DNA of 64,000 nt, taken from positions 620,001 to 684,000 of the forward strand of contig SHNF01000009.1 in NCBI GenBank assembly GCA_004295085.1, in the 5' to 3' direction. The translations under genes were made by a program, and so were the position numbers. This DNA comes from Planctomycetota bacterium. GTDB taxonomy: Bacteria > Planctomycetota > UBA1135. The notes below the pieces were generated by a model that had not been told where the DNA came from, searched no databases, and saw only the letters and a program-made list of their open reading frames with translations. This document shows, one piece after another, positions 46,062-56,737 of the stretch. The stretch's first letter is position 1, and the number at the start of each line of letters is the position of its first letter.

Positions 46062-46079
46062 CTTCACAATTCCTGCACA
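46062..46079 (+). promoter_or_regulatory. Pho box upstream of phoB
   Basis: CTTCACA-ATTC-CTGCACA is a direct repeat of two 7-mers spaced 11 bp start to start. That is the geometry of the PhoB binding site (consensus CTGTCAT-AAAT-CTGTCAT), located 35-52 bp before the phoB ATG. It implies PhoB autoregulation. Confidence 0.65.
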
Positions 46080-46113
46080 GGAGGCTGGCGCCTTCGCCAT
46101 AGCTTCACGGCAA

Positions 46114-46842
46114 ATGAAAGGAAAGAAACTGCTCCTGGTGGAGGACGACCCCGACCTGCTGGAGGTCCTGCGCCTGACCTTCGAGAACGAGGGCTACCAG
46201 ACCGTGCTGGCCAAGAACGGCGAGGAGGCGCTCAAGCTGGCCCGCCGCCACGATCCGGACATGGTGCTGCTGGACATCATGCTGCCGGGCAGGGACGGGA
46301 TCGAGGTCTGCCGCGAGATGCGGTCCGACCCGTCCCTCAAGGCCATGCCGGTCCTGATGCTGACCGCCAAGGCCGAGGAGGCCGACGTCGTGCTGGGCCT
46401 GGGCGTCGGCGCCGACGACTACATGGTCAAGCCGGCCCGGCCGCGCGAGCTGCTGGCGCGCGTGAAGACCTTGCTGCGGCGCGCGCAGCCGCGCGATCCC
46501 ACGGTCACCGACGAGGTGATGGTGCGCGGCGAGCTGGTGATCGACCCGGTGCGCTTCGAGGTGCGCGCCGGGGAGTGGCGCGTGCGCCTGACGCCCACCG
46601 AGTTCCGCCTGCTGCAGACCCTGGCGTCGCACCCGGGCCGCGTGTTCCGGCGCAACGAGCTGCTGGACCACGCCGTCGGCTCGGGAGTGGTGGTCACCGA
46701 GCGCACCATCGACACGCACATCAAGTCGGTGCGCCAGAAGCTGGAACGGCACGGCGACTGGATCGAGACCATCCGCGGCGTCGGCTACAGCTTCCGCGAC
46801 CTTGCCGAGGAACGCAAGCCGGTCCGGGCGTCGCGTTCGTAA
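46114..46842 (+). CDS. phoB: Response regulator PhoB, OmpR family
   Basis: This predicts 242 residues from the ATG at 46114. The receiver has EDDPD, Asp in MVLLDIMLPGRDG, LTAKAEE and Lys in MVKPARPREL. The C-terminal winged helix contains RLTPTEFRLLQTLASHPGRVFRRNELL and RTIDTHIKSVRQKLERHGDWIETIRGVGYSF. The family is OmpR/PhoB, and the downstream phoR, pst and phoU genes identify it as the phosphate regulator. The stop overlaps the phoR start (TAATG). There is no clear Shine-Dalgarno sequence before the ATG, so translation may be weak or leader-dependent. The upstream repeat suggests autoactivation under phosphate limitation. Confidence 0.93.
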   Translation: MKGKKLLLVEDDPDLLEVLRLTFENEGYQTVLAKNGEEALKLARRHDPDMVLLDIMLPGRDGIEVCREMRSDPSLKAMPVLMLTAKAEEADVVLGLGVGADDYMVKPARPRELLARVKTLLRRAQPRDPTVTDEVMVRGELVIDPVRFEVRAGEWRVRLTPTEFRLLQTLASHPGRVFRRNELLDHAVGSGVVVTERTIDTHIKSVRQKLERHGDWIETIRGVGYSFRDLAEERKPVRASRS

Positions 46843-48011
46843 TGGAGGTCGCGTTGCTCGCGGCCGGCGCGGCCCTGCTGGGGGCGGGCGCCGGTGGCAT
46901 CCTGCTGCGCGCGCGGCGGCGGCGGCGGGCGCTGGAGGCGCGGGCGGAATTCCTGGAGGTCGGCCTGCGCCAGCTGCAGCGCGCCGCCGAGTACCTGCAC
47001 GAGGGGCTGCTGCTGCTGTCGGCGGAGGATCGGGTCGTCTACGCCAACCCGGCGGCGATGGACCTGCTCGGCGTCAAGAACGCGCCGGAGCCGGGCGCCG
47101 AGCCCCGGCTGGAGTACTTCGTCGGCTCCGATGACCTGGCGGCGCGCCTGCGGGTGGAGACGGCGGAGCAGAGCGTGCGGCGCGTGGTCGAGGTGGAGGG
47201 ACGCAGCGGCGAGCAGGTGCTGGAAGTGACGGCGGCTCCTGTGCCCGGCGGGCGCCTGGTGCTGCTGCGGGACCTGCGCGCGCTCGAGGCCGTGGACCGC
47301 AAGCGCCGCGATTTCGTGGCCAATGCCTCACACGAGCTGCAGACTCCCATCGCCGCCATCATCGGACTGCTGGACCTGATCGAGACGCTGCCCGAGGCCG
47401 AGCGCGGCCGCCTGCTGGAGCGCGCCAGGCGCAACGCCGAGGCGCTGTCGTCCCTGACGCGAGACCTGCTGGGCCTGGCCCGCGCCGAGGATCCGGAATG
47501 GAGGCCGGCGCCCAAGCCGACGCGCCTGCAGGAAGTGGTGGCCAGGGTCGTGGACGTGCACGCGCCGCGCGCGCAGCACAAGGGACTGGTGCTGCAGTCG
47601 CAGGTGGAGCCTCCCGAGCTGGAGCTGGTGGTGGATCCGATGGCGCTGCAGACCGTGCTCGGCAACCTGGTGGACAACGCCGTCAATTACACGGAGAGCG
47701 GCATTGTTCAGGTCAGTGTGGGCACGGAGGCTGGCCTGGGAGCAGTGCTGGAGGTGGCGGACACCGGCCACGGCATCGCGCCGGAGGTCCAGCCGCGCAT
47801 CTTCGAGCGGTTCTTCCGGGGCGACCCGGCGCGCAGCCGCGAGACCGGCGGCACCGGCCTGGGCTTGAGCATCGTGCGCAACCTCCTGCGCCGCATGGGC
47901 GGGCGGATCGCGCTGGCGTCGCGGCCGGGAGTCGGCAGCCGGTTCCGGGTGGAGCTGCCGGAGAGCCCGGCGCGCCCGCTGCCGGGCGCCGGTCAGGCCG
48001 AGTTCAAGTAA
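46842..48011 (+). CDS. phoR: Phosphate sensor histidine kinase PhoR
   Basis: This predicts 389 residues. One membrane helix (MEVALLAAGAALLGAGAGGILL) is followed by a basic linker, a PAS domain (AAEYLHEGLLLLSAEDRVVYANPAAMDLLG) and a kinase core: FVANASHELQTPIAAIIGLLD, NLVDNAVNYTESG, VADTGHGIAPEVQPRIFERFF and GGTGLGLSIVRNLL. This is the classic PhoR layout, here with one rather than two helices, as the sensor reads the Pst-PhoU complex and not an extracellular ligand. It overlaps phoB by one base, so the pair is co-translated; 63 bp with Pho repeats separate it from pstS. Confidence 0.93.
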   Translation: MEVALLAAGAALLGAGAGGILLRARRRRRALEARAEFLEVGLRQLQRAAEYLHEGLLLLSAEDRVVYANPAAMDLLGVKNAPEPGAEPRLEYFVGSDDLAARLRVETAEQSVRRVVEVEGRSGEQVLEVTAAPVPGGRLVLLRDLRALEAVDRKRRDFVANASHELQTPIAAIIGLLDLIETLPEAERGRLLERARRNAEALSSLTRDLLGLARAEDPEWRPAPKPTRLQEVVARVVDVHAPRAQHKGLVLQSQVEPPELELVVDPMALQTVLGNLVDNAVNYTESGIVQVSVGTEAGLGAVLEVADTGHGIAPEVQPRIFERFFRGDPARSRETGGTGLGLSIVRNLLRRMGGRIALASRPGVGSRFRVELPESPARPLPGAGQAEFK

Positions 48012-48012
48012 G

Positions 48013-48051
48013 CCTCACAGAAGCTCAAGCGGCCTTCACAGAACCTCCATA
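48013..48051 (+). promoter_or_regulatory. Tandem Pho boxes upstream of pstS
   Basis: Four 7-mers follow at 11-, 10- and 11-bp steps: CCTCACA (48013), CTCAAGC (48024), CTTCACA (48034) and CTCCATA (48045). The two CxTCACA units equal the units before phoB. The array ends 23 bp before the pstS ATG and should make pstS strongly PhoB-dependent. Confidence 0.65.
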
Positions 48052-48074
48052 TTCGAGACCTAGGTTTCGGGGCC

Positions 48075-49061
48075 ATGAAAGCAATGACCCTACCCTCGGC
48101 CGTTGTGGCGGCCATCGTGCTCGCTGCTGCGGCGGGTGCCCAGGACATCAAGGTTGACCCCAAGGTCCCGCCGTACAAGCCCGTTCAAGGAGTCTCGGGA
48201 AACCTGAAGAGCATCGGCTCCGACTCCATGAACAATGAGATGACCTTGTGGGCTGAGGGCTTCGCCAAGTTCTACCCCAACGTCAAGGTCGAGATCGAAG
48301 GCAAGGGCTCCAGCACAGCCCCGACCGCGCTCACCGAGGGCACGGCGCACTTCGGCCCCATGTCCCGCCCCATGAAGAAGGATGAAGAGGACAAGTTCGA
48401 GCAGAAGTACGGCTACAAGCCCCTGGCGGTGAAGACCTCGCTGGACGTGCTCGCGGTGTACGTGCACAAGGACAACCCGATTCAGGGCCTCACGTTGCAG
48501 CAGGTGGACGCCATCTTCGGCAAGACCCGCAAGGGCGGCTACGAGAAGGACCTCGTCACCTGGGGCGACCTGGGGCTCACCGGGGAGTGGGCGGAGAAGC
48601 CGATCAGCCTCTACGGTCGCAACTCGGCCTCCGGCACCTACGGCTACTTCAAGGAGCACGCCTTGTTCAAGGGTGACTACAAGGACACGGTGAAGGAGCA
48701 GCCCGGCAGCTCGGCTGTGGTGCAAGGCGTCGCCTCCGACAAGTACGGCATCGGCTACTCCGGCATCGGCTACAAGACCGCCGACGTGCGCGCGGTGCCC
48801 CTGGCGGAGAAGTCCGGCAAGCCGTTCGTTGAGGCCGGCATGGAGAATGCCTACTCCGGCACCTACCCGCTGTCGCGCTTCCTGCTCCTGTACGTGAACC
48901 GCGAGCCCAACAAGCCGCTGGATCCGCTGCGCGGCGAGTTCCTGCGCTACGTGCTGAGCCGCGAGGGCCAGGAGTCCGTGGTGAAGGACGGTTACATCCC
49001 GTTGCCGCCGAAGATCCTGCTGCAGGAGTTGAAGTCGCTCGGGCTGACCGGCATCGAGTAG
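48075..49061 (+). CDS. pstS: Phosphate-binding protein PstS
   Basis: This predicts 328 residues. The signal peptide (about 1-22, ending AAAAGAQ) is followed by phosphate-binding-protein motifs: [46 protein letters not shown], and [16 protein letters not shown], which contains the Ser-Gly-Thr of the anion site. It lacks a lipobox, so it is soluble in the periplasm. Base composition here is less GC-extreme than in neighbouring genes, probably reflecting high expression. It precedes pstC by one base and is preceded by Pho boxes. Confidence 0.95.
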
Positions 49062-49062
49062 C

Positions 49063-51669
49063 TTGCCCTCCGCTTCCCCTCCGGCTGCGAACCAACTCCG
49101 GCGCGCCCGTCACACGCGCCGGAGCGTTCTTGTAGCCGACCGGCTGGCGCGCTGGCTCATCGGCGCCGGCGGCCTGTTCGTCATCATCGCCGTCATCGGC
49201 ATATTCGTGTTCCTGGTGTCGGTGGTGCTGCCCTTGTTCCGCGACGCCGAGGTGGCGGAGCCGCGCCGCTACGACATGGCCGGCGCGGCGCCGGCGCCGC
49301 TGCTGGCCGAGGTCAACGAGTACCAGTCCCTCGGCTTCACGCTCGCCGCCGACGGCGTGCTGCGCGCCTTCGACGCCGGCAGCGGGGCCGACCTGGGACA
49401 GGAGGCGCTCCTGCCGGAGGGCCGGAGCATCCGCGCGCTCAGCCGCAACCTGGACGCGCGCGGACTGGCGCTGGGACTGGACGACGGCACGCTGATCCTG
49501 GGAGACCTGCAGTTCGAGGTGCAGTACCTCACCTCGGCCGAGGTCACGGACGCCATGGAGAGCCTGGCGGTCGGCGGCTCGCTGCCGCTGGAGCGCGGCG
49601 TGGCCGAGCGCGTGGCGGAGGACCAGTACCGCGTGAGCGCGCTGCGCGCGGCCCTGGGCGCGCCGGTAAGCGCCGGCTCCGGACCGGCGCCGGTGGAACT
49701 GCTGGACTACCGTCTGGGCCAGGATCTCGATGTCCTGGCCGCGTTCAAGGCCGACGGCCAGTTGCTGCTGAGTCGGGTGAGCCGGCGCGAGAACCTGGTC
49801 ACCGGCGAGATCACGCGCGAGCTGGAAGAGTTCCCTTTACCCTTCGCGGCCGCGGCCGCGGCCGCGGCCGCGGCGCCGGCGTTCCTGCTCCTCAGCGGCC
49901 AGGGCGACCAGCTGTACCTGGCCTGGAAGGACGGCGCCCTGCTGCGCTACGACCTGCGCCGCCCGGAGGAGCCCGTCGTCGCCGAGCGTCTGGACCTGAC
50001 TCCGGAAGGCGGGGAGCTGACCGCCCTGGAGTTCCTGATCGGCGAGCAGACCCTGGTTGCGGGCGATTCCCAGGGCCGTGTGACCGGCTGGTTCCGCGTG
50101 CCCGCCACCGACCGCGAAGCCTTCCCGGACGGCTTCCAGCTGCTCGCGGCGCATCGCCCCGCCGCGCACGCCGCCGCGGTGCGCGCCATCGCGGTCTCGC
50201 CCCGGGATCGCAGCTTCGCCACCGGTGACGCCACCGGCGCGATATGGCTGCGCCACATGACCTCGGACCGCGTGCTGGCGCGGATGCGCGCGGGCCCCGG
50301 CCTGGCCGCCCTGCAGATCGCCCCCAAGGCCGACGGCTTGCTCGCCTGGGGCGGCGGCGCTGCCAGCCTGTGGTCGTACCGCATGGCCCATCCCGAAGTG
50401 ACCCCGGGGTCCGTGTTCGGCGCGACCTGGTACGAGGGCTATTCCGAGCCGCAATTCACCTGGCAATCGTCCAGCGGCACGGACGACTTCGAGCCCAAGC
50501 TCAGCCTGGTGCCGCTGATCTTCGGCACCTTGAAGGCGACGTTCTACGCCCTGCTGTTCTCGGTGCCGATCGCGCTGCTCGCGGCCATCTACACCAGTGA
50601 GTTCCTGAGCCGCCGCGCGCGCTCGGTCGTCAAGCCCGCCATCGAGATGATGGCGTCCCTGCCCAGCGTGGTGCTCGGCTTCCTGGCGGCGCTGGTGCTC
50701 GCTCCCTGGGTGGAGCAGAGCGTGCTCGGCGTCCTGTTCGCCTTCTTCCTGGTGCCGCTGGCCGTGGTCCTGGGCGCGTACCTGTGGCTGTTCGTGCCGC
50801 AGCGGCTGGCCGTGCGTCTCGACGGCACGCCCAAGCTGGCGCTCACCGCGGCCGTGATCGTGCTGGCCCTGGCCGCCGCCTTCCCGGCGGGACGCGTCCT
50901 GGAGCGGGCCTGCTTCGCCGGAGATCTGCGCGCGTGGCTGGCCCCGCCGCACCCGGGCAACGCCACCGGCTTCTGGGCCGCACTGCTGTTCGTGCCGGGG
51001 GTGGTGTGCGCCGCGGCCCTGCGGCGCCGGGTGGTGGACCCGCTGCTGGCGCGGGGGCCGGCGCGCACGCGCGGCCAGGAGGCGTTCGTGGAGCTGCTGA
51101 AGGGCGGCAGCGTCGTGCTCGGCGCCCTGGCGCTGTGCTGGCTGGGCGGCGCGGCGATGAACGCGCTGGGCCTCGATCCGCGCGGCTCGCTGGTCGGGAC
51201 CTACGTGCAGCGCAACACGCTTGTGGTGGGCTTCGTGATGGGCTTCGCGGTCATCCCCATCATCTACACCATCGCCGAGGACGCCTTGAGCGCGGTACCG
51301 GACCACCTGCGCGGCGCCGCGCTGGGCTGCGGCGCCACGCGCTGGCAGACCGCCATCCGCGTCGTGGTCCCGACCGCCATGAGCGGCATCTTCTCGGCCT
51401 GCATGATCGGGCTAGGCCGGGCCGTGGGCGAGACCATGATCGTGGTGATGGCAGCCGGCAACACGCCCATCCTGGACGTGAACGTCTTCAACGGGCTGCG
51501 CGCGCTGTCCGCCACGATCGCCGTGGAGCTGCCGGAGGCGGTCAAGGGCGGCACCTTGTACCGCATGCTGTTTCTCGCGGCGCTCACGCTGTTCGGGATG
51601 ACGTTCGTCGTGAACACGGCGGCCGAGGTCGTGCGCCAGCGCTTCCGCAAGCGGGCCTTCGAGCTGTGA
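49063..51669 (+). CDS. pstC: PstC-type phosphate permease with large periplasmic propeller-like insert
   Basis: This predicts 868 residues from a TTG start one base after the pstS stop. Residues about 31-56 are a membrane helix. About 60-440 form a soluble domain with WD40-like phrases (VRAIAVSPRDRSFATGDATGAIWLRHMTSDRVLARM). The permease domain starts near 480 (SLVPLIFGTLKATFYALLFSVPIALLAAIYTSEFL) and has the EAA-type loop GAALGCGATRWQTAIRVVVPTAMSGI (about 750). Usual PstC is about 300-330 residues. Enlarged PstC forms with an inserted soluble domain occur in several phyla. The insert may read phosphate load or contact PstS; this is inference. Confidence 0.9.
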   Translation: MPSASPPAANQLRRARHTRRSVLVADRLARWLIGAGGLFVIIAVIGIFVFLVSVVLPLFRDAEVAEPRRYDMAGAAPAPLLAEVNEYQSLGFTLAADGVLRAFDAGSGADLGQEALLPEGRSIRALSRNLDARGLALGLDDGTLILGDLQFEVQYLTSAEVTDAMESLAVGGSLPLERGVAERVAEDQYRVSALRAALGAPVSAGSGPAPVELLDYRLGQDLDVLAAFKADGQLLLSRVSRRENLVTGEITRELEEFPLPFAAAAAAAAAAPAFLLLSGQGDQLYLAWKDGALLRYDLRRPEEPVVAERLDLTPEGGELTALEFLIGEQTLVAGDSQGRVTGWFRVPATDREAFPDGFQLLAAHRPAAHAAAVRAIAVSPRDRSFATGDATGAIWLRHMTSDRVLARMRAGPGLAALQIAPKADGLLAWGGGAASLWSYRMAHPEVTPGSVFGATWYEGYSEPQFTWQSSSGTDDFEPKLSLVPLIFGTLKATFYALLFSVPIALLAAIYTSEFLSRRARSVVKPAIEMMASLPSVVLGFLAALVLAPWVEQSVLGVLFAFFLVPLAVVLGAYLWLFVPQRLAVRLDGTPKLALTAAVIVLALAAAFPAGRVLERACFAGDLRAWLAPPHPGNATGFWAALLFVPGVVCAAALRRRVVDPLLARGPARTRGQEAFVELLKGGSVVLGALALCWLGGAAMNALGLDPRGSLVGTYVQRNTLVVGFVMGFAVIPIIYTIAEDALSAVPDHLRGAALGCGATRWQTAIRVVVPTAMSGIFSACMIGLGRAVGETMIVVMAAGNTPILDVNVFNGLRALSATIAVELPEAVKGGTLYRMLFLAALTLFGMTFVVNTAAEVVRQRFRKRAFEL
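49845..49874. repeat. Five tandem CGCGGC hexamers encoding alanine run
   Basis: Five exact copies of CGCGGC give overlapping GCGGCCGC sites and encode AAAAAAAAAA in a linker of the PstC insert (about residues 262-271). Alternating purine-pyrimidine content makes it a slippage and Z-DNA-prone spot. Confidence 0.8.
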
Positions 51670-51673
51670 GCGC

Positions 51674-53446
51674 ATGGAGGCCGCACGCGTGACACCGGTC
51701 GAGGCCGCGCAGCGCGCCGTAGCGTCCGCCGTGGCGCCCGCGGCTCCGGCCTCCGGAGCGGGGGCGCAGCCGCCGCACCGGCGCGGCCGCCGCACCGCGC
51801 TCGCCGCCGCCGGCGAGCCGCTGGTGTGGCTGCTCGGAGCCGGCCAGGTTCTGGCGGTGCTCATGATCGCCGGCCTGCTCGGCCTGATCTTCTACCAGGG
51901 CTTCCGGACGTTCTGGCCCAGGCCCCTGGTGCAGATGCAGGTGCGGACGGCGCCGGACGCGCCGCCGCAGCGCTACCTGGGCGAAGTCGTGCGGCACGAG
52001 AGCTACCGCCTCACCGGGACGGCGCCGGATGGCGCGGTCCCGGCGGCGGAGCGGCGCAGCCTGTTGCGCGTCGGCAACTACGACTTCTACGGCGACGACT
52101 TCCGCTGGATCCCGGAGCTCGGCGTGGTGGCGGAGCTGCGCCCGGCGGACGCCGTCACCATCGAGCGCCTGGAGTGGGGCCCGTTCTTCGGCTTCGTGCG
52201 CGAGTACCGCGTGGACGGCCGGACCGTGGCCACCGGCGAGGCGGCGTGGCGGCGCTTCCAGGCCGAGCACGGCGGCGCGCGCGGGCAGTGGGCGCGCGCC
52301 CGCCGCATGCTCAAGCACGACCTGGGCCGCGTGAACCGCAAGCTGGAGGAGGACCGGCTCGCGCTGCGCCGGGTCGAGCTGGCGCACGGTCGCGACTCCG
52401 CCGAGTACGCCGACGCGGTGCGCGAGAGCGCCGCCGGCAGCGCGCGCCTGCAGGAGGAGTACCGGCGCATCCAGAGCCAGGCCGAGGCCCTGCGGCAGGA
52501 AGCGGAACGCACCAGCCTGGTGGTGGCGGAGGTCGGCGGCCGGGAGAAGGAGCTGAAGTCCGCCGAGATCGTGCGCGCCTTCCAGCCCAACGCCCTGGGC
52601 TTCACCGGCAAGCTGGGCGTGTACTTTTCGCGCTGGTGGGAGTTCCTGAGCGCCGAGCCGCGCGAGGCCAACACCGAGGGCGGCGTGCTGCCGGCCATCT
52701 TCGGCACCGTGGCCATGACCTTGATCATGGCGCTGCTGGTGACTCCGTTCGGGGTGATCGCTGCGCTGTACCTGCGCGAGTACGCCCGCCAGGGCTGGCT
52801 GGTGTCCGTGGTGCGCATCGCCGTGAACAACCTGGCCGGCGTGCCCAGCATCGTGTTCGGCGTGTTTGGCCTGGGCTTCTTCTGCTACGTGATCGGCGCC
52901 TCGATGGACCAGCTGTTCTTCGCCGAGAAGCTGCCCAACCCGACTTTTGGCACTGGCGGGCTGATGTGGGCTTCGCTGACCCTGGCCCTGCTCACGGTGC
53001 CGGTCGTCATCGTGGCCACGGAGGAGGCGCTGGCGGCGGTACCGCGCTCGCTGCGCGAGGGCGCCTTCGCCTGCGGCGCCAGCAAGTGGCAGGTGATCCG
53101 GCGCGTGGTGCTGCCCAAGGCCCTGCCCGGCATCATGACCGGCGTGGTGCTGGCCATGGCGCGCGGCGCGGGCGAGGTGGCGCCGCTGATGATCACCGGG
53201 GTGGTGAAGCTGGCGCCGGAGCTGCCGCTGGACGGCGAGTTCCCGTTCCTCCACCTCAACCGCAGTTTCATGCACCTCGGCTTCCACATCTACGACGTCG
53301 GCTTCCAGTCGCGCAACGCCGAGGCCGGCAAGCCGATGGTCTTCACCACCACCCTGCTGCTGATCTGCGTGGTCCTGCTGCTGAACATCAGCGTGATCGC
53401 GGTGCGCACGCGCCTGAAGCGCAAGTACGAATCCGGCTACTTCTGA
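51674..53446 (+). CDS. pstA: PstA-type phosphate permease with coiled-coil insert
   Basis: This predicts 590 residues. After a membrane helix (about 55-77) comes a soluble insert of about 250 residues whose centre ([25 protein letters not shown] ... [23 protein letters not shown]) is a strong coiled coil. The permease domain starts near residue 335 ([36 protein letters not shown]) and contains [40 protein letters not shown]. Usual PstA is about 280-300 residues. Both permease subunits are enlarged here, so the two inserts may interact on the outside of the membrane. It starts four bases after pstC. Confidence 0.9.
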
Positions 53447-53448
53447 GC

Positions 53449-54315
<867 letters not shown>

Positions 54316-54329
54316 GCTGCGCCAAGGCG

Positions 54330-55004
54330 ATGACCAAGCACCTGCTCCGCGACCTCGAGCAGCTCTCCTCCGAGCTGCTGCAGCTCACCCGCAAGGTGGA
54401 GGACCAGCTGTCCGCCGCCCTGGCCTGCGTGATGACGCGCGACGCCGAGAACGCGAACAAGGTCATCCAGACCGACGACGAGATCGACCGCATGGAGGTG
54501 AAGCTGGAGGAGGACGCGCTCAAGATCCTGGCGCTGCACCAGCCGGTTGCCTCCGACCTGCGCTTCATCATCGCCGCCATCAAGATCAACAACGACGTCG
54601 AGCGCATCGCCGACCTGGCCGCCAACATCGCCAAGCGGGCGGTGGAGCTGTCGCACATGGCCCCGGTGGCGCCCCCGGACTCGTTCGAGGAGATGGCGGA
54701 GAAGGCGCGGCTGATGGTGCGCCAGGCGATCACCGCGCTCATCCGCCGCGACGCCGTGCTGGCCAAGCAGGTCACGCGCGAGGACGACACCGTGGACCAG
54801 CTCAACCGCCAGATCGCCCGGCACCTGCGCGAGCGCATGAAGGACTGCGCGCCGGACCACATCGACCCCTTGATGCGCTGGCTGAGCGCCGTGCGCCACC
54901 TGGAGCGCGTGGCCGACATGAGCGTCAACATCGCCGAGGACGTGATTTACATGGTGGAAGGCGATATCGTGCGCCACACGCGCAGCTCCGGCTCGCCCGG
55001 CTGA
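54330..55004 (+). CDS. phoU: Phosphate-signalling protein PhoU
   Basis: This predicts 224 residues. It is a two-repeat, three-helix-bundle protein with the metal-site motifs ASDLRFIIAAIKINNDVERIADLAANIAKRA (first repeat) and RWLSAVRHLERVADMSVNIAEDVIYMVEG (second). PhoU couples Pst transport to PhoR and keeps the Pho regulon off when phosphate is plentiful. It starts 14 bp after pstB and ends the operon. The following 83 bp holds the repeat array before the DUF47/PiT genes. Confidence 0.95.
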   Translation: MTKHLLRDLEQLSSELLQLTRKVEDQLSAALACVMTRDAENANKVIQTDDEIDRMEVKLEEDALKILALHQPVASDLRFIIAAIKINNDVERIADLAANIAKRAVELSHMAPVAPPDSFEEMAEKARLMVRQAITALIRRDAVLAKQVTREDDTVDQLNRQIARHLRERMKDCAPDHIDPLMRWLSAVRHLERVADMSVNIAEDVIYMVEGDIVRHTRSSGSPG

Positions 55005-55026: not shown

Positions 55027-55081
55027 GCGTGAGAAACGCGCGCAGAACGCGTGAGCGGCCGGTGAAGCCCGCGTAAGATCC
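55027..55081. promoter_or_regulatory. Five 11-bp phased repeats, reversed Pho-box-like array
   Basis: Five 11-mers follow without gap: GCGTGAGAAAC, GCGCGCAGAAC, GCGTGAGCGGC, CGGTGAAGCCC and GCGTAAGATCC. The recurring GTGA(G/A) is the reverse complement of the TCAC core in the units before phoB and pstS, so this array faces the opposite way. It ends six bases before the DUF47 ATG, a position more suited to repression than activation. Regulation by PhoB is inferred from the spacing. Confidence 0.55.
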
Positions 55082-55087
55082 GCGGGC

Positions 55088-55714
55088 ATGTTCGGCCGCT
55101 TCCTGCCCAAGGAGACCAGCTTCTTCGAGTTTTTCGAGCGCCACGCCGCCGTCACGGGGGAGGGAGCCAGAGAGTTCCTGTCGCTGTCGGAGCCGCTGGT
55201 CAACGTCCACGCCAAGGTCCGGCGCATCAAGGAGCTGGAGCACGAGGCCGACGTCATCACCCACGACTGCGTGGAGGCGCTGCACAAGACCTTCATCACG
55301 CCGATCGAGCGCGACGACATCCACCGCCTGATCACGCGCATGGACGACATCATGGACTATGTCGACGAGGCATCCGAGCGCATCAGCCTGTACGAGATCC
55401 ATGAATTCACGCCGGAGCTGCGCAGCATGGCCGAGATCCTGGTGCGCGCCACCGAGCAGATCCTGGGGGCGGTGAAGGGTTTGCGCAACATGAAGAACGC
55501 CGCGCCGGTGCGCCGCGCGTGCGTGGACATCAACCACCTCGAGAACCAGGGCGACGGCATCTACCAGCGCGCCGTGGCGCGCCTGTTCAAGGAGGAACGC
55601 GATCCCATCGCCGTGATCAAGTGGAAGGAGATGTACGAGAGCCTGGAGAACGCCGTCGACCGGTGCGAGGACGTGGCCAACACGCTGGACGGCATCGTGC
55701 TCGAGCACGCCTGA
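55088..55714 (+). CDS. DUF47 (PhoU-like) PiT accessory protein
   Basis: This predicts 208 residues. FGRFLPKETSFFEFFERHAAV is the typical DUF47 start, and IKELEHEADVITHDCVEALHKTFITPIERDDIHRLITRMDDIMDYVDEA the PhoU-like helical core. A second PhoU-like motif is INHLENQGDGIYQRAVARLF. Such proteins sit directly upstream of PiT phosphate permeases and are thought to regulate them. Three bases separate it from the permease gene. The repeat array immediately in front suggests phosphate control. Confidence 0.95.
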   Translation: MFGRFLPKETSFFEFFERHAAVTGEGAREFLSLSEPLVNVHAKVRRIKELEHEADVITHDCVEALHKTFITPIERDDIHRLITRMDDIMDYVDEASERISLYEIHEFTPELRSMAEILVRATEQILGAVKGLRNMKNAAPVRRACVDINHLENQGDGIYQRAVARLFKEERDPIAVIKWKEMYESLENAVDRCEDVANTLDGIVLEHA

Positions 55715-55717
55715 TCC

Positions 55718-56737
55718 GTGGCGGATCCGCTCCTGGCTCCCGTCGTCGTCACGGTCGCCATCGCGCTGGCCTTCGACGTCATCAACGGCTTCCACGACGC
55801 GGCCAATTCCATCGCCACCGTGGTGTCCACGCGCGTGCTCTCGCCCCGGTTGGCCGTGCTGTGGGCGGCGTTCTTCAACTTCGTGGCCATGTTCGTGTTC
55901 CCCGCGGCGGTGGCCGGCACGATCAGCAGGATCGTCATCATCGATCCGTCCGATCACGCCTACGTCTACGTGGTGCTGGCCGGCCTGCTCGGAGCCATCG
56001 TGTGGGACCTGTTCACCTGGTGGCGCGGCCTTCCGACCAGCTCCTCGCACGCCCTCATCGGCGGCGTGGCCGGCGCCGGAGCGGCCCATGCCGGCTGGAG
56101 CGTCCTCAACTGGGACAAGGTGTTCACCACCATCCAGTTCATCCCCCTGGCGCCGCTGATCGGCCTCGGCCTCGGCTTCGCGCTCATGCTGGCCGTGTAC
56201 TGGCTGTTCCGGAGCTGGCGCCCGGCCCAGGTGGACCGCGTGTTCCGCCGCGGCCAGCTGGTGAGCGCCGCCCTGTACTCGCTGGGCCACGGGGGCAACG
56301 ACGCCCAGAAGACCATGGGCATCATCGTGGCCCTGCTCGTGGCCGCCGGCTACCGCGACCCCGGCGCCTCCGGCGTGCCGGTCTGGATCGTCCTCTCCTG
56401 CCACGCGGCCATGGCCGCGGGCACGGCGCTGGGCGGCTGGCGCATCGTGCGCACCATGGGCATGCGGATCACCAAGCTCCGCCCGGTGGGGGGCTTCTGC
56501 GCCGAGACCGCCGGCGCCGTCACCTTGTTCGGCAGCACGCATTTCGGCATCCCGGTGTCGACCACCCAGACCATCACCGGCTCGATCATCGGGGTGGGCG
56601 CCACCCGCCAGGTCTCCGGCATCAAGTGGGGGATCGCCGGACGCATCGTCTGGGCCTGGGTGCTGACCATCCCGGCCTCGGCCCTGGCGGCCGCGGGCTG
56701 CTTCCTGCTGATCCGGGCCGTGCACCCCGCCTTCTGA
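55718..56737 (+). CDS. pit: Low-affinity inorganic phosphate transporter, PiT family
   Basis: This predicts 339 residues from a GTG start. The PiT signature occurs twice as expected: FDVINGFHDAANSIATVVSTRVLSPRLAVLWAAFFN in the N-terminal half and SLGHGGNDAQKTMGIIVALL plus FGIPVSTTQTITGSIIGVGA in the C-terminal half, with around ten membrane helices. It transports metal-phosphate or sodium/proton-coupled phosphate across the inner membrane. Together with the DUF47 gene it forms a two-gene operon just after the Pst system, so high- and low-affinity uptake are encoded side by side. Confidence 0.95.
   Translation: MADPLLAPVVVTVAIALAFDVINGFHDAANSIATVVSTRVLSPRLAVLWAAFFNFVAMFVFPAAVAGTISRIVIIDPSDHAYVYVVLAGLLGAIVWDLFTWWRGLPTSSSHALIGGVAGAGAAHAGWSVLNWDKVFTTIQFIPLAPLIGLGLGFALMLAVYWLFRSWRPAQVDRVFRRGQLVSAALYSLGHGGNDAQKTMGIIVALLVAAGYRDPGASGVPVWIVLSCHAAMAAGTALGGWRIVRTMGMRITKLRPVGGFCAETAGAVTLFGSTHFGIPVSTTQTITGSIIGVGATRQVSGIKWGIAGRIVWAWVLTIPASALAAAGCFLLIRAVHPAF

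Follow-up and report, generated by a model that had tools for sequence, protein, structure and literature searches.

The window, i.e., the 64,000-nucleotide stretch of planctomycete DNA analyzed here, contains five 11-bp units directly in front of an operon encoding a DUF47 accessory protein and a PiT low-affinity phosphate transporter, which follow each other without gaps and have their core on the minus strand (Table 1). This stretch is very probably a PhoB array, since a Pho motif derived de novo from pstS promoters, together with its 11-bp step, ranks it at the top of the window, and nothing in a 400-kb background from the same genome equals it. As its reversed units sit over the putative promoter of the operon, PhoB probably turns off pit from this position, and the regulator switching on emergency phosphate uptake would thereby probably switch off the low-affinity transporter.

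Table 1. Features of the phosphate cluster, with positions in the window
Feature	Position	Strand	Basis
Forward Pho box of phoB	46062..46079	+	sequence CTTCACAattcCTGCACA from 46062
Putative -10 of phoB, TAGCTT	46100..46105	+	N8 before ATG at 46114; offset 20 from box
phoB	46114..46842	+	best NCBIfam match TIGR02154 (PhoB), 239.4 bits, below cut-off of 296.2; Pfam Response_reg and Trans_reg_C
phoR-type histidine kinase	46842..48011	+	best NCBIfam matches PnpS and PhoR, below cut-offs
Forward Pho units of pstS	48013..48051	+	48013 CCTCACA; 48034 CTTCACAgaacCTCCATA
Putative -10 of pstS, TAGGTT	48061..48066	+	9 bp after box, 8 bp before ATG
pstS, pstC, pstA, pstB	48075..54315	+	NCBIfam above cut-off, all four
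phoU	54330..55004	+	TIGR02135 above cut-off
Five-unit 11-bp Pho-box-like array	55027..55081	-	sequence; top rank with de novo motif, second rank with hand-picked PWM
Potential RNA hairpin, AUG in internal loop	55053..55101	+	present only in read-through RNA
Putative -10 of DUF47/PiT promoter, TAAGAT	55074..55079	+	inside fifth unit; spacing as in phoB and pstS
DUF47 (PhoU_div) Pit accessory protein	55088..55714	+	PF01865, 112 bits, cut-off 24.4
PiT low-affinity phosphate transporter	55718..56737	+	PF01384, 317 bits, cut-off 33.7

The array and its match to the Pho motif

The genes of the cluster are all located on the plus strand in the order phoB, phoR, pstS, pstC, pstA, pstB, phoU, DUF47, PiT. 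The predicted PstC (868 aa) and PstA (590 aa) proteins, encoded between 49063 and 53446, have long N-terminal extensions, with Pfam matching only their C-terminal permease parts.

Direct reading of the DNA upstream of DUF47 yielded, from 55027 to 55081, the units GCGTGAGAAAC / GCGCGCAGAAC / GCGTGAGCGGC / CGGTGAAGCCC / GCGTAAGATCC, which confirms the original prediction of five gapless units with a reversed core that end six bases before the ATG at 55088. The corresponding 7-bp cores on the minus strand are TCTTACG, CTTCACC, GCTCACG, CTGCGCG, and TCTCACG. The units are degenerate: scored with a hand-picked position weight matrix (PWM), only CTTCACC (55067, minus strand) is strong when taken alone, the others being weak and CTGCGCG a poor match. 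Because of this weakness of the individual units, the assignment depends on how they are phased and on the complete array. Like PhoB/PhoP operators, the array repeats a 7-nt core directly every 11 bp, and its core matches the Pho consensus of the lineage, weak as the single units are. For the array region, Tandem Repeats Finder reported no tandem repeat, a repeat search yielded no family with 11-bp spacing, and generic promoter and terminator finders detected nothing. This silence is expected, given that the units are degenerate and the promoters GC-rich.

Forward arrays upstream of phoB (46062) and pstS (48013 and 48034) are present as described earlier, and the phoB box is the best match in the genome to CTTCACANNNNCTTCACA, with a single mismatch. 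Three further genomic matches to CTTCACANNNNCTTCACA were not counted as regulon members, as they have neither a TAnnnT within 32 bp after the match nor a recognized phosphate gene downstream. A forward Pho-like dimer at 55280-55297 (CTGCACAAGACCTTCATC) is situated inside DUF47, where it provides the codons for HKTFIT, and was therefore taken as a coding coincidence.

The Pho motif of the lineage was built from pstS promoters of other genomes; the window was never used for this purpose. For a first PWM, 11 training dimers were chosen by eye from such pstS regions. With this matrix, the five-unit score of the pit array was the second best of 127,900 window positions, the phoB array being first. 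When 400 kb of the same genome were scored, none of the 798,000 positions matched it, with one position coming within 0.03 bits, and the 83-bp intergenic region reached its score in one of 5000 dinucleotide-shuffled versions. When steps of 8-14 bp were compared, a positive five-unit score was obtained at 11 only. A second motif, generated by unseeded expectation maximization (EM) from the regions upstream of pstS in 27 other genomes, was GTGAAGA, the complement of TCTTCAC, and agrees with the hand-picked one. Its step was likewise 11 bp (log-likelihood ratio of 190.9 vs. 52.7-85.2 at 8-10 and 12-15 bp). Scored with this de novo motif, the pit array ranked first among the 127,900 five-unit positions of the window, and 0/798,000 positions of the 400-kb background from the same genome equaled it. 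Reduced to three units, it ranked fifth of 127,944, with 30 of 798,880 background positions being equally good. These results support a Pho core of approximately TCTTCAY / CTTCACA at an 11-bp step in this lineage, in line with the lineage-specific core that had been proposed. The de novo motif also has a high-scoring reverse-strand match over a gene start at around 480-500 of the window (GTGAAGGAGAAATCATG), which is probably a coincidence with a ribosome-binding site.

With TAnnnT as a crude criterion for a -10 element, phoB, pstS, and DUF47 were found to have the arrangement TAnnnT-N8-ATG in common (TAGCTT, TAGGTT, and TAAGAT). Across 464 kb of this genome, TAnnnT shows an enrichment at 6-12 nt upstream of ATG (11-20 counts per spacing vs. 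2-8 for a control triplet), which suggests that this genome uses leaderless or short-leader transcripts. The array overlaps TAAGAT, which the spacing common to phoB and pstS marks as the putative -10 of the DUF47/PiT operon, and since TAAGAT falls inside the fifth unit, a bound array would cover this promoter. A by-eye search for a sigma-70 -35 hexamer 16-18 bp from TAAGAT found none. While the phoB and pstS arrays end in the activating register of the lineage, i.e., with a TAnnnT 9 or 9+11n bp downstream, the pit array does not show the arrangement of PhoB-activated promoters of the order, in which a forward box is followed by TAnnnT after 9, 20, or 31 bp. Past the last unit, the part of the minus strand that was scanned contained no in-phase TAnnnT.

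Pho boxes at pstS and pit in other genomes

Upstream regions of pstS were analyzed for 28 of the best-scoring 30 loci of the order; two loci whose matches lie near contig starts were left out. Dimers with a score of at least 8, the threshold used throughout, were present on the forward strand in 27 of the 28 regions and on the reverse strand in three. Past the last dimer, TAnnnT occurred at offset 9 in eight regions, at 20 in one, and at 31 in four, and hence in phase in 13/27, its frequency in these regions being 0.003 per position. Both pstS (TAGGTT, offset 9) and phoB (TAGCTT, offset 20) of the window fit this offset rule.

PF01865 was found in none of the 25 other genomes of the family examined, and a DUF47 match in 27 of 154 genomes of the order. 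From the latter, 24 upstream regions were used, leaving out one at a contig end and two belonging to distant partial matches. Dimers of at least 8 were detected in 13/24 regions in forward and in 7/24 in reversed orientation, vs. an expectation of about 0.03 for each strand of a region, calculated from 400 kb of the window genome, from which other genomes may differ; as some of the 24 regions are kin to one another, these counts are not independent. The 11-bp phasing upstream of pit is accordingly also seen in relatives. What separates the two promoter classes is the register: an in-phase TAnnnT follows 13/27 pstS boxes but 0/20 pit boxes (Fisher test, 1.7e-4, or 2.8e-3 when restricted to forward boxes; neither value takes relatedness into account). 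By eye, several pit boxes lie on probable promoter elements. In genus g47 the box is placed on a promoter of the TTTGAC-N17-TACAAA type, in genome G035 it includes a TAGCTT, and in G043 it begins about 9 bp downstream of a TAGCCT.

The seven reversed pit boxes comprise that of the window, one in genome G441, which belongs to a divergent pstS, and five in genus g43. Five of the six g43 genomes have a reversed Pho-like dimer approximately 126 bases upstream of the DUF47 match, and three of these five have forward units as well. At two g43 loci inspected, there was no divergent gene, and the upstream gene, a GlpC-like iron-sulfur protein by our own reading, was co-directional. Among the relatives examined, no five-unit reversed array was seen besides that of the window genome, and none passed in a scan of the six loci with the closest DUF47 homologs (61-64% identity). 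Two of these loci (L012 and L013) show by eye a hint of reversed TCAC-like cores near the start, which we regard as a lead only. Reversal at pit is the exception, not the rule. Two parts of the original prediction were therefore not borne out, namely that the reversed array is a conserved arrangement and that its reversal makes the site repressive, as more relatives have forward boxes at pit and these, too, are without an in-phase TAnnnT. Reversal itself is probably not needed for repression, even if the reversed orientation would presumably exclude the usual activating contact.

In a scan of other lineages covering 70 of 71 DUF47 loci (one partial match was left out), forward multi-unit 11-bp arrays were found at DUF47-pit in six Elusimicrobia. 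They consist of four units resembling CTTTACA, TTTTACA, CTTTAAA, or CTTTATG, lie about 60-100 bases upstream of DUF47, and have a TAnnnT at offset 9, detected by script in five cases and by eye in the sixth (L069). Judged by this geometry, DUF47-pit is apparently PhoB-activated in these Elusimicrobia. They thus share with the window a multi-unit 11-bp array ahead of DUF47-pit, but differ from it in that their arrays are forward and, ending 9 bp before TAnnnT, in activating geometry. One and the same operon thus carries PhoB-type arrays whose geometry is activating in one phylum and non-activating in another.

Proposed repression by occlusion and alternative explanations

We consider it probable that the 55-bp stretch is a PhoB operator which represses the DUF47/PiT promoter under phosphate limitation by occlusion. 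The five 11-bp units would be occupied head-to-tail by PhoB~P, the product of the same cluster. With the ATG taken as the start of a leaderless transcript and TAAGAT as its -10, the array spans approximately -61 to -7 from the ATG, so that PhoB bound to it would lie over the -35 and -10 regions and keep RNA polymerase away. In the phoB and pstS promoters, PhoB on forward units that end one fixed step upstream of the -10 would instead recruit the polymerase. PhoB binding, the -10, the start site, and repression at pit are what we infer; this explanation is also supported by the presence of phoB and phoR in the same cluster and by the enrichment of Pho dimers upstream of pit in relatives. The opposite control of Pst and PiT originally envisaged is supported, since the pit array covers the putative -10 and the pst and phoB arrays are in activating register; reversal as the cause of repression is not. 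The earlier sequence reading was right and the functional one is plausible; what is added here is that the site overlaps the probable -10 and that pstS and pit boxes differ in register across the order.

Conversely, PhoB might bind the array and activate DUF47/PiT under phosphate limitation through an unusual contact or an unrecognized promoter, as the six Elusimicrobia and Streptomyces pitH2, which is PhoP-activated from four repeat units (PMC7866108), would suggest. We regard this as quite unlikely, given that the array of the window is reversed and overlaps the -10, and that the activating register is absent from all 20 pit boxes of the order. Slightly less improbable, but still unlikely, is that there is no PhoB site at all and that GC-rich sequence, the -10, and an inverted repeat mimic an array, or that another OmpR-family regulator binds. 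The degenerate units, the chance position within 0.03 bits under the hand-picked PWM, and three-unit scores that are not rare would fit this explanation. It is hard to reconcile, however, with the first rank and empty background obtained with the unseeded motif, with the location in an 83-bp gap beside the phosphate cluster and ahead of a phosphate gene, and with the 11-bp Pho dimers upstream of pit in relatives.

An explanation at the RNA level starts from the inverted repeat formed by units 3-5 and the first DUF47 codons. The RNA of 55053-55101 folds at -34.1 kcal/mol (z -4.2) into a structure of 17 base pairs, an internal loop of which contains the AUG, and no terminator-like site was found between phoU and DUF47, so the conserved function might be to mask the DUF47 start codon in a hairpin when transcription reads through from pst, possibly alongside the array. 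Such a hairpin could shield DUF47/PiT from induction of the upstream pst operon. As the conserved function it is nevertheless very improbable, since equally stable folds occur in 502 of 15,986 windows of the genome (3.1%) and in 4 of 450 ATG start regions, and since none of 25 selected start regions of relatives, when folded, contained the hairpin. Lastly, the reversed array might activate a minus-strand antisense transcript into phoU. Besides the core orientation, only the G441 box, which is reversed with respect to DUF47 and serves a divergent pstS, points in this direction. The lack of a TAnnnT past the last unit on the minus strand of the stretch scanned makes a role as antisense activator unlikely, and as phoU upstream runs in the same direction and there is no start of a divergent gene, we give this explanation hardly any weight.

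Repression by occlusion may also be one part of a wider picture, which we put forward tentatively and consider doubtful as a whole: the DUF47-pit PhoB array could be a sign switch that is flipped by moving or reversing it, with the start-codon hairpin as a second lock here. Forward forms would stand at the activating step in Elusimicrobia, and in several planctomycete genera they would be found on the core promoter or close to it; reversed forms would lie over the -10 in the window and occur as dimers in one genus, of which three members also have forward ones. The hairpin of the window genome would then guard against read-through from the induced pst operon.

Comparison with known phosphate regulons

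For this order of the Planctomycetota, the analysis provides a concrete consensus for the Pho box, together with its activating register (two CTTCACA-like cores with TAnnnT 9 bp on), and, more generally, a geometric rule for predicting PhoB activation vs. repression, for which orthologous DUF47-pit operons can be compared across phyla. A full-text search combining Planctomycet, PhoB, and Pho box gave matches that, by title and start of abstract, concern other organisms, and in the open-licence full texts searched, we did not find a reversed array of several Pho units described over the -10 of a pit gene. PhoB-linked repression of pit is already known, while the reversed array over the promoter looks new.

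In Escherichia coli, PhoB activates or represses depending on site position, activation requiring strict spacing, and pitB is not a PhoB target (PMC10294691). The E. coli regulon resembles the window in its direct-repeat Pho boxes and differs in the core, TGTCAT. Its intragenic PhoB sites mostly appeared inert (PMC10294691), which weakens a roadblock version of the idea proposed for the pit array. In Sinorhizobium meliloti, orfA-pit, with a Pho box immediately before the start, is repressed on Pi starvation (PMC3131613, citing Bardin et al.), and pit is down-regulated under Pi stress (PMC8829014). As there, the window has an accessory gene followed by pit, with a Pho array just before the start and, as proposed here, control reciprocal to the high-affinity systems. 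Differences are the core, CTGTCAT, and the phylum, and the likeness is drawn irrespective of the orientation, unit number, and -10 relation of the S. meliloti box.

Streptomyces PhoP operators resemble the array in that they, too, are composed of several directly repeated 11-nt units, their core being of the TTCAC type (GTTCACC), and PhoP is known to repress by promoter binding, e.g., at glnA and amtB (PMC7866108, PMC6988585, PMC4415409). Unlike what is proposed for the window, pitH2 is PhoP-activated (PMC7866108), and the accessory-plus-pit operon pap-pitH1 is without Pho boxes. This diversity is in line with the statement that Pit regulation differs among species (PMC4415409).
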